This document shows positions 17,800-34,923 of a stretch of DNA of 64,000 nucleotides, in pieces. The translations under genes and the position numbers were made by a program. Below the pieces are notes generated by a model. It was not told the DNA's origin and searched no databases. It saw only the letters and a list, made by a program, of their open reading frames with translations. Position 1 is the stretch's first letter, and every line of letters begins with the position of its first letter. This DNA comes from Selenomonadales bacterium. GTDB taxonomy: Bacteria; Bacillota; Negativicutes; Sporomusales; UBA7701. The DNA is taken from the NCBI GenBank assembly GCA_029975165.1, contig JARKPR010000002.1:1-64000 (forward strand). The letters are read 5' to 3'.

Positions 17800-18095
17800 T
17801 TGAATGCCAAAAGCCCCCATCCGTAAAGGACGAGGGCTTAACTCGCGGTACCACCTTTGTTACCCGCCGCAAGGGCGGATCACCTCACAGGGTACGGGCG
17901 TGCGGCCGATACCCCCCTTCTCGTAACGGCGAAGGTTCCCGGCGTCGCCTACTACCCTGGCGGGCTTCAGCTTGCAACTCCCAGGAGAACTTCGGCATTT
18001 GGCCTGTACCGGGCTTCCACCAGTCCCCGGCTCTCTGCGACGAGGCGCCATGCCTACTTTTCCTGTTCATCGTTTTTCCCTGGCATTTAGTTGTT
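17800..18095 (-). promoter_or_regulatory. T-box leader (tRNA-Phe sensing) for pheA-aroF
   Basis: The minus strand carries the T-box AAAGGTGGTACCGCG (17844-17858), followed by a terminator stem GCCCTCGTCC / GGATGGGGGC and TTTT at 17806-17840. Stem I is at the 5' end: CAGGA and GGCAT pair with TCCTG and ATGCC around an internal loop AAAGTA / GAAGTTC. The 3' side of that loop ends in TTC (17987-17989), the Phe codon, matching the pheA function. GAGAGCCGG and TGGTGGAAGC apical elements are present. Uncharged tRNA-Phe should stabilise the antiterminator. Confidence 0.93.
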
Positions 18096-20718: not shown

Positions 20719-20754
20719 GAAAACCGCCCGACAGACCGGGCGGTTTTATTTTTT
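20719..20754. terminator. Terminator between convergent genes
   Basis: AAAACCGCCCG / CGGGCGGTTTT 11-bp stem, ACAGAC loop, followed by ATTTTTTC. Confidence 0.92.
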
Positions 20755-21848
20755 CATGTCCCCGTTACGTCCGCCCGCTGGCGCAGCGCCCCCGGCCCGT
20801 CCTGGGCCACGGCCACCGCCGCCTCGCCGAACGTCTTCATATCGTTCAAGACACCAAGCCCGGCGTCGATCAGGGTCATGCCCAGCGCCGCCCCCGTCCC
20901 CTCCCCCAGCCGCATGTTCAGGTGGAGATAGGCTTTGATCCCCAGCAGGGCCAGCGCCTCATCGTGGGCCGGTTCGCAGGAAAAGTGCGAGCCGACGAGG
21001 TACTCCGCGGCGGCCGGGGCCAGTTTCACGGCCAGCAGGGCGGCCGCGCTCGTTATCACCCCGTCGAGCACCACGGCCGCCCGGCCGGCGGCCGCGCCGA
21101 GGATGACGCCCACCAGGCCGGCGATTTCGAAGCCGCCCACCTTGGCGAGCACGTCCAGGGGCTGCGCGGGATCGGGCCGGTTCGCGGCCAATGCCCGCCC
21201 GATGACCGCCGCCTTATGGGCGACGGCCACGCCCGACAGCCCGGTGCCGCAGCCGGTGAGCGCCGCCAGCGGCTGCAGGCTGTAACAGGCGACGATCGCG
21301 GTGCTCGGGGTGGTGTTGCCGATCCCCATTTCGCCCAGGCCGATAATCCTCGCCCCCCGGGCGATCGCCTCCCCGGCCGCCTCGATGCCCACCGCGACCG
21401 CCTGCAAGGCCTGCTCCACGGTCATCGCCGGTCCGCGGGCGATATTGCCCGTGCCGTACGCCACTTTTGCCCGGCGCAGGCCGTCCGCAGCCGGCAAATC
21501 CACGGCCACGCCGACATCCACCAGCATCAGTTCGGCGCCGGCGTGGCGGGCGAAGGCGTTTATCGCCGCCCCGCCGCGCAGGAAATTGCCCACCATCTGG
21601 GCCGTAACTTCCTGCGGGTAGGCGCTCACCCCCTCGACGGCCACCCCGTGGTCGCCGGCCATGAGGACGATGCACTTGCCCAATCCCTGCGGCCTGGCCC
21701 GGCCGGTTATGCCCGCCATGCGCACCGCCAGCTCCTCCAGGCCGTGCAGGCTGCCCAGCGGCTTCGTCAGGTTGTCCAGCCGCAGCCGGCAAGCCGCCAT
21801 CGCCGCACCGTCGAGCGGGCCGATGGCGGCGACCGTCGCGTTCAGCAT
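20754..21848 (-). CDS. CobT homologue 2, ArsB/ArsA-like lower-ligand phosphoribosyltransferase
   Basis: 364 aa of the CobT family, which transfers phosphoribose from nicotinate mononucleotide to the lower-ligand base of cobamides. Family landmarks: KPLGSLHGLEELA, AGDHGVAVEGVSAYP, GLGEMGIGNTTPSTAI, and the catalytic Glu in RLGEGTGA near the end. It overlaps the first homologue by 7 bases (ATGCTGA). Tandem, heteromeric CobT homologues are the hallmark of ArsAB from Sporomusa ovata, which activates phenol and p-cresol. Which is A and which is B cannot be told from this. Confidence 0.9.
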   Translation of the reverse strand: MLNATVAAIGPLDGAAMAACRLRLDNLTKPLGSLHGLEELAVRMAGITGRARPQGLGKCIVLMAGDHGVAVEGVSAYPQEVTAQMVGNFLRGGAAINAFARHAGAELMLVDVGVAVDLPAADGLRRAKVAYGTGNIARGPAMTVEQALQAVAVGIEAAGEAIARGARIIGLGEMGIGNTTPSTAIVACYSLQPLAALTGCGTGLSGVAVAHKAAVIGRALAANRPDPAQPLDVLAKVGGFEIAGLVGVILGAAAGRAAVVLDGVITSAAALLAVKLAPAAAEYLVGSHFSCEPAHDEALALLGIKAYLHLNMRLGEGTGAALGMTLIDAGLGVLNDMKTFGEAAVAVAQDGPGALRQRADVTGT

Positions 21849-22921
21849 AACCGGCCCACCTCCCGGACCTCGCCGGCGACGCCCGCCTCCGCGAACGTGG
21901 CCATCCCGTCCGCCATTCCGATCGCCGCGTCCAACAGGCTCATCGCCAGCGAGGCGCCCGTTGCCTCGCCCAGGCGGAGCCCCATATCGATGTAAGCCTC
22001 GAGGCCGAGGAACTCCAGCATCTTAATGTGGCCCGGCTCGGCCGACAAATGCGACGCCAGCATATAATCGCGGGCCGCCGGCGCCAGCGCGTACGCGATC
22101 AACGCCGAAGCGCCGGCGTTGAAGCCGTCGATGACCACCAGGCAGCGGCGGGCCGCCGCGCCGAGGATAACGCCGACCAGCCCGCCGATCTCGAAGCCGC
22201 CCACCTTGGCGAGCACATCCAGGCCGTCGGCGGGATCGGGGCGGTTGACCGCCAGCGCCCGGCGGACGGCGGCGACCTTCACCGCCAGCCGGCCGTCGGA
22301 AATGCCGGTGCCGCGGCCGGTGGCCTGCTCGGGGCTTATGCCGGTGAAAGCGGCGGCGATGGCCGCGCTGGCCGTCGTATTGCCGATGCCCATCTCGCCG
22401 ATGCTGAAGCAGCGGTATCCCTTGCCCACCTGCTCGTCCACCACCGCGATGCCCGTCTCCACCGCCTGCACCGCCTGCTCGCGGGTCATCGCCGGCCCCT
22501 GGGTGAAGTCGGCGGTCCCCCAGGCCACCTTGCGGTGCCACAGGCCGGGTACGTCGGACAAGTCTCCGGCCACGCCCATGTCCACGACCACGAGGTCGGC
22601 GCCGCAGAACTTGGCCAGGGCGTTGGCGCCGGCCCCCCGGGACACGAGATAATTGCGGGTCATATGCACCGTCGTCTCCACCGGGTAAGCGCTCACTCCC
22701 TGCCTGGCCACGCCGTGGTCGGCGGCGGTCAGCACCATGCATTTTTTCGGGATGGCAGGCCGCTCCTCGCCCGTCACCCCGGCGTACTGGCGGATCATAT
22801 CCTCCAGCCGCCCGAGGCTGCCCGTCGGCTTTGTAAGGCTGTCGAGCCTCGCCTGGGCTCCGGCCATCGCCGCCGCGTCCAACGGCCCGATCGCCGCCAG
22901 GGTACCGGCAAGCAGTTTCAT
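21842..22921 (-). CDS. CobT homologue 1, ArsA/ArsB-like lower-ligand phosphoribosyltransferase
   Basis: 359 aa, CobT family. Landmarks: KPTGSLGRLEDMIRQYAG, TAADHGVARQGVSAYP, SIGEMGIGNTTASAAI, GRGTGISDG and the catalytic Glu in RLGEATGA. First gene of the two-gene unit. ATG 22921 follows GAGGAGG by seven bases; TTG 22927 lies in that spacer. Upstream is a leader with an intrinsic terminator. Alternative reading: one copy is an ordinary CobT and the other a recent duplicate. Confidence 0.9.
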   Translation of the reverse strand: MKLLAGTLAAIGPLDAAAMAGAQARLDSLTKPTGSLGRLEDMIRQYAGVTGEERPAIPKKCMVLTAADHGVARQGVSAYPVETTVHMTRNYLVSRGAGANALAKFCGADLVVVDMGVAGDLSDVPGLWHRKVAWGTADFTQGPAMTREQAVQAVETGIAVVDEQVGKGYRCFSIGEMGIGNTTASAAIAAAFTGISPEQATGRGTGISDGRLAVKVAAVRRALAVNRPDPADGLDVLAKVGGFEIGGLVGVILGAAARRCLVVIDGFNAGASALIAYALAPAARDYMLASHLSAEPGHIKMLEFLGLEAYIDMGLRLGEATGASLAMSLLDAAIGMADGMATFAEAGVAGEVREVGRLC

Positions 22922-22927
22922 TAGCAA

Positions 22928-23062
22928 TCCTCCTCGAATAAAAAAGACTCCCGGGGGCGGATAACCCCCGAAAGCCCTGATATGCCCGGGAATTACTCAC
23001 CTTTCCGCGAAGGCGCGTAGCGGCGGCAGGGGCACCTCTGCCGTATCGGTCTATACTATTAT
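22928..23062 (-). promoter_or_regulatory. Structured leader with attenuator before the tandem cobT genes
   Basis: On the minus strand a CGGCAG / CTGCCG hairpin (near 23028-23046) is followed by TCCCGGG, which can pair with a later CCCGGGA. The last part is a terminator: GGGGG / CCCCC stem ending in TTTTTT at 22940-22945, directly before the RBS. That is the layout of a riboswitch or attenuator. No B12 box (GCCACTG) is visible, so it is not a canonical cobalamin riboswitch. Ligand unknown. Confidence 0.55.
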
Positions 23063-23104
23063 CCCCGGCGGCGCCGACCGTAACCGCGCTTTCCCAGGAA
23101 TCGC

Positions 23105-31128: not shown

Positions 31129-34100
31129 TCAGAAAACCATCCTTAAGCCGACGTTCACCATCCACGGCGTCCGGACGTCGCTGCCGGTAGTTTTGCTTAT
31201 CTCCAGGTAGGTGTTCGTCTTGCCGTTGGTGGCGGTCAGCCCCAGGGCGTATTCCAGCCATGTCCCCTTTAGGTTCTGTTCCCTGGTCACCGCCGGCAGC
31301 CCGTTCAGGGACATCGTCACCTCGGACTTAGCGGAGAATTCCCGCGCCACCGATACTTTGGCATAGAAGGTGCTTTTCGCCGTGTTCCTGCCGTAGGCCA
31401 CGCCAAGCCGGCCGACGGTCGTGCCGATGGCGCCGTTGTGCACCGCCGTGCCGTCGCTGGCCGTGTAGTCGGCGCCGCTTATCCGGCCGAAGGTTATTTC
31501 CGCCTGCGGCTCGAGGTACCAGCCGCCGGCCAGTTGCCGGCGGTGGCCGTATTCGGCCGACAGGCTGGTGCCCCAGTTCTTGTAGCTACCGGTCACCTCG
31601 GTGGCGGCGCCGTTGTTCAGGTAGCTGCTGTAGCTGTTCCTCAGCCTGGCCTGCTTGACGATGATGTCGAGGAAATGCCCCTTGTCCCCCAGCCAGCTCC
31701 CGTAGGCGCCCACGCTCAGGCTGCCGTAGTCGCCCCGGCCCCGTTCCGCGGTCAGGTCGCCGCTCAGGTAGCCCAGGGAGAAGCCGGTGTGCCAGGTGCC
31801 TTCTACCGTTTTGCGGGCGGTGTCGTAGCCGCCCTGGAAGGCGGTATACTGCGCCGTCGTCCGGCGGCCGTCCGTGCCGGTGGCCTCCAGGGCGCCGCGG
31901 TAGATCCTGAGCCACTCGCCCGCTTTGCCGCTGTCGTTGCGCAGCTCGCCCATGCGCCGCGTCAGGTCGTTGATCTCGCCGCGCCACAGCATGAGGCTGC
32001 CGGTGCTGAAAGCGGCGGCGGTGTACATCGTCTCGCTCACGCCGCCGTTCGGGACGAGGCGCGTCACCGCCCAGCTCGTCCCGCCCGAGCCTGCCGACAG
32101 CTCCGGCGTGTACTGGTATGGGCCGTATTCGGTCGACAGCGCCCGGAAGGTGGTGCCGCCCGGTACGGTGGCGAACTCCGCCGCCCCGGATACGATGCTA
32201 CCGGTGGCGTAGCCCGGGTCATAGCCCACCCGTACGGTATGCTCCGCCGCCGCCGCGCTGGTGATGGTTATCCTGTCGGCCTGGCCGTTGGCCAGGTCGG
32301 TGTTGATGACAAAGTTAGCCGCCCCGCTCAGTTGGCCGATGGTCAACTGGTTGCCGACGGTCGCGCCGTTGGCTAGTCGCACCGTGCCGCCGCCCGTCAC
32401 GACCATGTCCGCTATGTGGTAAGCGCCTGAAACATCGTTCGCGCTGATCGTCGCCCCGTTCAGTTGCGTAGTCCCCGACAGAGCCGCGCCCGAGTACAGC
32501 GCGATAACCCCGCCGGCGTTGGCCGTGGTGTCGGTCGCGCTGCCGGACAGCGCCAGGATCCCGCCGCTCTGCACGGTCGTGCTTGTTGCCGTGCCGCCGG
32601 AATATACGAGCTGCAAGCCGCTGTCATTGACCGTCGTGTTCGTAGCGCTGCCGCCGCTCAACACATGCTGCTCGCCGCCGCTGTTGACGGTCGTGTTTGT
32701 CGCGCTGTGCCCGGACAGCACGTTGAGCCAGCCTCCGCTGTTCAGCGTCACGCTCATGGCGAGGCCGCCGCTGATGGCGACCGCACCGCCGTTCGCTTCC
32801 AGCGTCGCGCTTGTATCGGCCTGCAGCACGTAGCCGGCCGCCAGCGTCGCCCCGGTCGCGCTGCCGCCCGCTCCCAGGTACAGTATTCCGCCGGAGCTTA
32901 CCGTCGTGCCTGTCGCGCTACCGCCGCTTGACACCTGCTGCAGTCCGCCGTTGTTTACGGTCGTGTTTGTCGCGCTGCCGCCGAGATACACATACTGCCC
33001 GCCGCCGTTGTTGACTACGGTATCTGTCGCGCTGCCGCTCCAAACATGCTGTTCGCCGCCGCTGTTCACGGTGGTATAAATCGCGACGCCATCGCCGACC
33101 ACCTGCTCCAGCCCGCCGCTGCCGACCGTCGTCCCCGTCACACGGCCGTATAGATACTCCCTCCCGCCGCTGTTGACAGTCGTATCCGTGGCGCTGTGAC
33201 CGGACAGCACGTTGAACCAGCTCCCGCTGTTCAGTGTCACGCCCACGGCGTGACCGCCGCTGATCGTGACCGTCCCGCTGTTGGCTTCCAGGGTGGCGCT
33301 GGTGTCGGCCTGCAGCACGTAGCCGGCCGAAAGCATCGCCCCAGTTGCACTGCCGCCTCCCCTCAAGTGGAGTGTACCGCCGCTGTCGACCGTCGTACCT
33401 GTCGCGCTGCCACCGCTGTATACCAGTTGCGCGCCACCGCCGTTGACTATGGTATCTGTCGCGCTGCCGCCCCAAACATGCTGTTCGCCGCCGCTGTTCA
33501 CGATGGTGTCCGTCGCGCTGCCGCCGCCGGCCACGGACTGCCTGCCGCTACTGTTGACGATGGTGCCTGTCGCCCTGCCGCCGTTGGACACAGACTGCCC
33601 GCCGCCGCTGTTGACAGTGGTACCCGTCGCGCTGTGCCCGGACAGCACCTCGAGCAGGCCTCCGCTGTTCAGCGTCACGCTCGTGGCATGACCGCCGCTG
33701 ATGGCAACTGCACCACCGTTCGCTTCCAGCGTCGCGCTGGTGTCGGCCCACAAAATATAGCCGTCCGCCAGCGTCGCCCCGGTCGCACTGCCGCCCGACA
33801 ACACGGTCAGTTTCCCCCCTGAGCCGACCGTCGTGCCCGTCGCGCTGCCGCTCCAAACACGCTGTTCGCCGCCGCTGTTGACGGTCGTGTTTGTCGCGCT
33901 GCCGCCGTGCGACACGAATTGCCCGCCGCCGTTATTGACGATGGTTCCTGTCACGCTGCCGCCGATATAAACATGCTGTGCACCGCCACTGTCGATCGTC
34001 GTGCCCGTCGCGCTGCCGCCAGACACTTTCTGCGTGCCGCCGCTGTTGACGGTGGTGTTCGTGGCGTTCCCGCCGCTGTTAACCTGCTGCTGGCCGCCGT

Positions 34101-34923
34101 TTAAGATGGTACCCGTCGCGCTGCCGAGGCCGAATACATACTGCGTGCCGCCGCTGTTGACGGTGGTGCCTGTCGTGCGTCCGCCGCTGGATACGTGCTG
34201 CTGGCCGCCGCTGTTGACGGTCGTGCCAGTCACGTCGCTGTATGCCGTCTCCCGGCCGCCGTTGTTGACGATCGTGCCGGTCGCGCTGTGCCCGTGCTCC
34301 ACCCAGAGCCAGCCTCCGCTGTTCAACGTGACACCCGAAGCATGGCCGCCGCTGATGGCGACCGCCCCGCCGTTCGCCGCCAGCGTGGTGGCGCTGGTGG
34401 TGGCCACCAGCACGTAGCCGGACTCCAGGGTCACCCCGGTCGCGCTGCCGCCCCTTTGCAGCGACAGTATCCCGCCGGAGCCTACAGTCGTGCCCGTCGC
34501 GCTACCGAGTATTTCCTGCCGTCCGCCGCTGTTAACCGTCGTATTCGTCGCGCTGCCGCCGCTGTGGATATACTGATTGCCGCCGGTGGTAACGGTGGTG
34601 TTCGTCGCGCTGCCGTACACATTTTGCTGGCCGCCGTCGTGGACGACGTCGCCGTCGGCGGTTTGGCCGGCGCTGACCGTTTTTGTTCCTGTAACGTCGG
34701 CGGCGTACACGGTGGTGAAAAACAGCCTGTCCAGGAGTTGCCCGCCGTTCCACCGCGCTGCCAGCCACTCCTCGGTGACGGTCTCCCTGGTCTTGGCGAG
34801 GTCGGTTGCCGCGGCAAAATAGGGCAGCGCCAGCGGCGCGCCGCAGTTCATGCCGTTTGCCGCCGCCATGAGGACGGATACGGATTTCTGGCCGACGAAT
34901 GTCTTTTTGCCCCGTTTGCCCAT
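31129..34923 (-). CDS. AIDA-type autotransporter adhesin
   Basis: 1264 aa. An N-terminal export region (MGKRGKKTFVGQKS, then a hydrophobic stretch) leads into a passenger of strand-loop-strand repeats (SATxTTVNSGGxQxV) over about residues 75-815. A pertactin-like spacer follows (TVRLANGATVGNQLTIGQL). Residues from about 980 form the autotransporter beta-barrel (WLRIYRGALEATG...MVNVGLRMVF, C-terminal Phe). It inserts in the outer membrane and displays a long beta-solenoid. The ATG overlaps the heptosyltransferase stop (TAATG), so both are cotranslated. Confidence 0.95.
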   Translation of the reverse strand: MGKRGKKTFVGQKSVSVLMAAANGMNCGAPLALPYFAAATDLAKTRETVTEEWLAARWNGGQLLDRLFFTTVYAADVTGTKTVSAGQTADGDVVHDGGQQNVYGSATNTTVTTGGNQYIHSGGSATNTTVNSGGRQEILGSATGTTVGSGGILSLQRGGSATGVTLESGYVLVATTSATTLAANGGAVAISGGHASGVTLNSGGWLWVEHGHSATGTIVNNGGRETAYSDVTGTTVNSGGQQHVSSGGRTTGTTVNSGGTQYVFGLGSATGTILNGGQQQVNSGGNATNTTVNSGGTQKVSGGSATGTTIDSGGAQHVYIGGSVTGTIVNNGGGQFVSHGGSATNTTVNSGGEQRVWSGSATGTTVGSGGKLTVLSGGSATGATLADGYILWADTSATLEANGGAVAISGGHATSVTLNSGGLLEVLSGHSATGTTVNSGGGQSVSNGGRATGTIVNSSGRQSVAGGGSATDTIVNSGGEQHVWGGSATDTIVNGGGAQLVYSGGSATGTTVDSGGTLHLRGGGSATGAMLSAGYVLQADTSATLEANSGTVTISGGHAVGVTLNSGSWFNVLSGHSATDTTVNSGGREYLYGRVTGTTVGSGGLEQVVGDGVAIYTTVNSGGEQHVWSGSATDTVVNNGGGQYVYLGGSATNTTVNNGGLQQVSSGGSATGTTVSSGGILYLGAGGSATGATLAAGYVLQADTSATLEANGGAVAISGGLAMSVTLNSGGWLNVLSGHSATNTTVNSGGEQHVLSGGSATNTTVNDSGLQLVYSGGTATSTTVQSGGILALSGSATDTTANAGGVIALYSGAALSGTTQLNGATISANDVSGAYHIADMVVTGGGTVRLANGATVGNQLTIGQLSGAANFVINTDLANGQADRITITSAAAAEHTVRVGYDPGYATGSIVSGAAEFATVPGGTTFRALSTEYGPYQYTPELSAGSGGTSWAVTRLVPNGGVSETMYTAAAFSTGSLMLWRGEINDLTRRMGELRNDSGKAGEWLRIYRGALEATGTDGRRTTAQYTAFQGGYDTARKTVEGTWHTGFSLGYLSGDLTAERGRGDYGSLSVGAYGSWLGDKGHFLDIIVKQARLRNSYSSYLNNGAATEVTGSYKNWGTSLSAEYGHRRQLAGGWYLEPQAEITFGRISGADYTASDGTAVHNGAIGTTVGRLGVAYGRNTAKSTFYAKVSVAREFSAKSEVTMSLNGLPAVTREQNLKGTWLEYALGLTATNGKTNTYLEISKTTGSDVRTPWMVNVGLRMVF
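32480..34690 (-). repeat. Tandem strand-loop-strand repeats in the autotransporter passenger
   Basis: Repeats of about 19 codons encode SATxTTVxSGGxxxVxSGG. A larger segment (ISGGHA..VTLNSGGxLxVLSGHSAT) recurs four times, starting at about 32702, 33191, 33629 and 34283, so the passenger grew by segmental duplication. The repeat units carry many Ser and Thr, the acceptor sites expected for O-heptosylation. Confidence 0.85.

Follow-up and report, generated by a model that had tools for sequence, protein, structure and literature searches.

CobT of Salmonella enterica is a single enzyme that acts on both benzimidazoles and adenine. In Sporomusa ovata, the same protein family is represented by ArsAB (PDB 4hdk, 4hdm, 4hdn, 4hdr, 4hds), encoded by tandem genes with arsA first and arsB second. 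Tandem cobT genes served as a phenolyl-cobamide marker in a survey of 11,000 species, where they occurred in 27 species, nearly all Negativicutes (PMC6461909). We analysed such a pair in a 64,000-nt stretch of a Selenomonadales bacterium genome (GCA_029975165.1, contig JARKPR010000002.1, positions 1 to 64,000; hereafter, the window), together with related genomes. We observed that the pair is orthologous to ArsAB and that a third cobT heads an ethanolamine operon elsewhere in the same genome, an arrangement that recurs in related forms across the class.

Both genes of the pair are real, complete and adjacent full-length CobT homologues on the minus strand. Based on open reading frames (ORFs), PDB matches, clade placement and residues, arsA (21842–22921, 359 amino acids) encodes the putative catalytic subunit of a CobT-family nicotinate mononucleotide:phenol/p-cresol phosphoribosyltransferase, and arsB (20754–21848, 364 amino acids) its putative partner subunit, with active-site residues intact. 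As the first-pass annotation of the window had stated, the two ORFs overlap by 7 nt (21842–21848), which likely couples their translation, and both proteins carry the motifs GEMGIGNTT and LGE(A/G)TGA. The end that it gave for the locus (23062) was too far upstream: arsA starts with an ATG at 22921, and 22922–23086 is 5′ leader. This ATG is preceded by an AGGAGG site; a TTG at 22927 is unlikely to be the start. Both proteins scored above the cut-off of the NCBIfam CobT model (417 and 400 bits; cut-off 319.3 bits). The ratio of nonsynonymous to synonymous substitutions (dN/dS) relative to same-genus copies was 0.11–0.17 for arsA and arsB (NG86); both are therefore under purifying selection.

The proposed ArsAB identity was borne out by structure matches and phylogeny. 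The best PDB match of the upstream protein was S. ovata ArsA (4hdk_A, 462.7 bits; runner-up, 270.4), and that of the downstream protein was S. ovata ArsB (4hdk_B, 383.2 bits; runner-up, 281). In two trees, the window copies clustered with S. ovata ArsA and S. ovata ArsB, respectively, in clades with 99–100% support. In the second tree, both clades had 100/100 support with the CobTs of other phyla outside them, and neither window copy grouped with these as an ordinary benzimidazole CobT. Sequence comparison thus identifies the upstream gene as an ortholog of S. ovata arsA and the downstream gene as an ortholog of arsB. In G109, a genome of the order to which the source genome also belongs, both proteins match the PDB sequences of ArsA and ArsB at 100% identity across the stretches compared; G109 is therefore S. 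ovata or nearly so, and we used it as such below.

We next compared active-site positions. E174 and E317 (Salmonella CobT numbering), which we take to be the catalytic residues, are shared with Salmonella CobT and intact in the window ArsA, as are the remaining positions checked. All eight tabulated positions were conserved in 21/21 ArsA sequences, including that of S. ovata. Salmonella CobT has S80 and Q88, where ArsA has Y and M; Y80/M88 was rejected as a signature for the use of phenol, since CobTs of other phyla also carry it. ArsB sequences varied at the eight positions. The window ArsB is among those that keep the full set (YMEMNTKE), whereas S. ovata ArsB is degenerate (QREMGLEE) and has a short deletion. 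The S. ovata protein also reads GEMGLGGLAAA where the window ArsB reads GEMGIGNTTPS, so S. ovata ArsB does not retain the two motifs together, a correction to the annotation. ArsA alone is reportedly catalytic in S. ovata; this need not apply to the window pair.

Such a duplication had been called rare outside the Sporomusa group. We observed instead that tandem or fused cobT is the rule within Negativicutes. PF02277 matched in 28/28 genomes of the order, mostly as an adjacent pair or a single fused ORF, and in 189/200 genomes of a Negativicutes sample. The window pair is thus expected, and it adds a member to a known type that is already a published marker. ArsA-ArsB fusions were seen at locus L066 and in families f16, f14 and f22 as single frames of mostly ~600–840 amino acids. 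Their second half scored very weakly, and a tandem-gene definition of arsAB would overlook them.

The source genome does contain a third cobT, a possibility raised with the original annotation. It lies on a separate contig (C29, 35237–36328, minus strand) at the head of a complete eut microcompartment operon, followed by eutS, eutP, a permease gene, eutM, eutA, eutB, eutC, eutL, eutE, eutM, a pduL-like gene, eutN and a pduS-like gene (names assigned by similarity judged by eye and by an EutB search). The eutS ORF overlaps cobT by ~11 nt, and a sensor kinase gene lies upstream of cobT. No cobalamin riboswitch was found on this stretch of C29. The same layout of the operon head was present in Sporomusaceae SM1-B11.1, which also carries an ArsAB-like pair, and in UBA1444, and at 0 of the other 78 relative loci compared. 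Contamination is an unlikely origin of the third cobT: C29 has a GC content of 0.62 compared to 0.64 for the window and a tetranucleotide correlation with it of 0.93, and SM1-B11.1 has the same operon. The encoded CobT belongs to a lineage sister to ArsB (97/94), distinct from the clade that holds the pdu-linked cobT genes of its relatives. Veillonella parvula resembles the source genome in having a phenolyl-type arsAB pair and an extra separate cobT, but only the source genome's extra CobT heads an eut operon, and it is of another lineage. V. parvula reportedly produces both cresolyl and benzimidazolyl cobamides, in proportions that vary (PMC8123684).

To place this arrangement, we scored extra CobTs and two eliminases, EutB (ethanolamine ammonia-lyase) or PduC (diol dehydratase). 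Among the 28 genomes of the order, an unselected set, 16 had an extra CobT and an eliminase, three an extra CobT only, one an eliminase only and eight neither (Fisher test, P = 4e-4). Among 114 genomes of the class, the corresponding counts were 46, 7, 7 and 54 (P = 7e-17, a value overstated by relatedness among the genomes and by partial selection of the sample on eliminase presence or absence). Linkage is the stronger evidence: the extra CobT lay within 6.3 kb of an eliminase gene in 43/46 genomes having both. In the 46 eliminase-free genomes that were searched, no clear extra CobT was seen; G007 had two unpaired CobTs. In many families, a divergent CobT was encoded at a distance of 2.2–6.2 kb from PduC or ~0.85 kb from EutB. 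In pdu operons, cobT is conserved as the first gene, ahead of a PocR-like sensor, a regulator, eutS, eutP and pduABCDEG, with a cobalamin riboswitch directly before it at the loci tested, which span several families. Families f16 and f10 show the gene order permease-eutA-eutB-eutC-cobT. The main eliminase-linked CobT clade has Q in 17/17 members where 21/21 ArsA sequences have M. The trees suggest, without proving it (AU test, P = 0.085), that eliminase-linked cobT was recruited from two lineages. One 2.1-Mb genome of family f27 (G050, locus L171) has two cobT-type genes within and beside a single pdu operon, flanking pduC. We found no published link of cobT to pdu or eut operons in Negativicutes, in a search that most subscription literature fell outside.

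S. ovata itself has a stand-alone cobT (locus L061, 9410–10444) that is preceded by a riboswitch and falls in the eliminase-linked clade, and neither PduC nor EutB had a match in its genome (G109). In a published study, the riboswitch before S. ovata cobT was the sole semiselective one among those tested from the species, a type with a strong response to Cbl and pCbl but a weak one to cobinamide and cresolylcobamide, whereas the others respond to the native cresolyl cobamide (PMC9600662). The authors interpreted semiselectivity as discrimination against cobinamide (PMC9600662). Our reading is that the riboswitch senses the base-on product.

These data led us to a model of two cobamides with two uses. 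ArsAB would form a heterodimer that uses nicotinate mononucleotide as phosphoribose donor and the hydroxyl group of phenol or p-cresol as acceptor, yielding the activated lower ligand of phenolyl or cresolyl cobamides, which would serve base-off corrinoid enzymes in general use. Diol dehydratase uses a base-on cobamide. Ethanolamine ammonia-lyase also requires base-on cobamides and is inactive with cresolylcobamide (PMC7733943, PMC12013260). A phenolyl cobamide never takes the base-on form (PMC9600662), so a second cofactor would be needed for ethanolamine ammonia-lyase. The eut-linked third CobT would activate a nitrogenous base, and the resulting base-on cobamide would supply that enzyme. 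BluB had no match above the cut-off in the source genome and only one ThiC-type gene was found, with other anaerobic benzimidazole genes not searched; the base is therefore likely to be a purine, or else a benzimidazole that the cell scavenges. Across the class, operon-linked CobTs would likewise make base-on cobamide for EutB or PduC. We consider this division, with ArsAB making phenolyl cobamides and the operon-linked CobT a base-on cobamide for eliminases, to be likely.

The window leader of arsAB departs from those of its relatives. Complete cobalamin riboswitches (RF00174) precede arsA in three same-genus genomes, in three other Negativicutes and in all Sporomusa-type genomes tested, S. 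ovata included. In contrast, no RF00174 match above the gathering score was found in the window, and in the arsA leader only flanking parts align. The leader (22922–23086, minus strand) aligns with the 5′ end, the 3′ tail and the terminator of the same-genus riboswitches and lacks the core; it is thus a riboswitch remnant. Hairpin scanning and folding identified a terminator-like hairpin of 15 pairs followed by a T run (22944–22978, minus strand), 22 nt before the arsA start. Its aligned position is conserved among same-genus leaders, and it still folds. Either a genuine loss or an error in the assembly could account for the missing core.

Several observations weigh against the two-cobamide model. 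With no riboswitch core ahead of arsA, expression of arsAB in this organism is uncertain. The ligand split may not be strict, because S. ovata ArsAB accepts benzimidazoles as well (PMC8123684). An eliminase occurs without an extra CobT in seven genomes, and an extra CobT occurs without an eliminase in seven, including S. ovata. The class-level comparison was not a fair test, and we infer the substrates of both ArsAB and the third CobT from sequence. The core-less leader with its folding terminator, next to full aptamers in the same genus, would also fit an arsAB that is being lost or silenced. We regard this as very improbable: both frames are open with catalytic residues intact and low dN/dS, a genome of the same family (G005) likewise has no RF00174 match upstream of arsA, and a gap in the assembly could give the false impression of a deletion.

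The pair could instead be an ordinary CobT duplication for benzimidazole or purine cobamides, with the phenol link of S. ovata not transferable to this branch. NCBIfam labels both proteins plain CobT, the intact ArsB active site would allow two equal CobT activities, and the Y80/M88 of ArsA is also common in CobTs of other phyla. The S. ovata enzymes nevertheless fall inside the same two fully supported clades, and cresolyl cobamide production is reported both for S. ovata and for V. parvula, another Negativicute (PMC9600662, PMC8123684), which leaves this explanation improbable. A further alternative concerns the linked cobT, which might only increase the overall amount of cofactor, as is seen elsewhere for cob genes next to pdu loci, without selecting the lower ligand. 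We consider this rather unlikely. The base-activating step is the only cobamide gene seen at the heads of these operons, most of the genomes concerned possess ArsAB already, and the eliminase-free genomes searched had no clear extra CobT. The Q/M difference between the linked clade and ArsA, and the unique semiselectivity among tested riboswitches of the one before the S. ovata cobT (PMC9600662), also favor a difference in ligand.

Other features of the window were also recorded. A terminator-like hairpin just 3′ of arsB (20720–20747, found by scanning and read on the plus strand) may end convergent transcripts. A T-box leader (17823–18079, minus strand, 116.5 bits) lies upstream of an apparent pheA/aroF aromatic operon, and three genomes of the same genus likewise have a T-box leader near arsAB. 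A 1264-amino-acid repetitive protein encoded at 31129–34923 (minus strand) resembles an autotransporter adhesin.

The ArsAB pair adds one more genome with a known marker, and the surrounding pattern of extra cobT genes would matter more. If the two-cobamide model is true, it would explain how bacteria whose main cobamide fails in base-on enzymes can use ethanolamine and propanediol, and it would put the unusual riboswitch of S. ovata cobT in a new light. To predict a single cobamide for each genome just from arsAB would then be wrong for many species.
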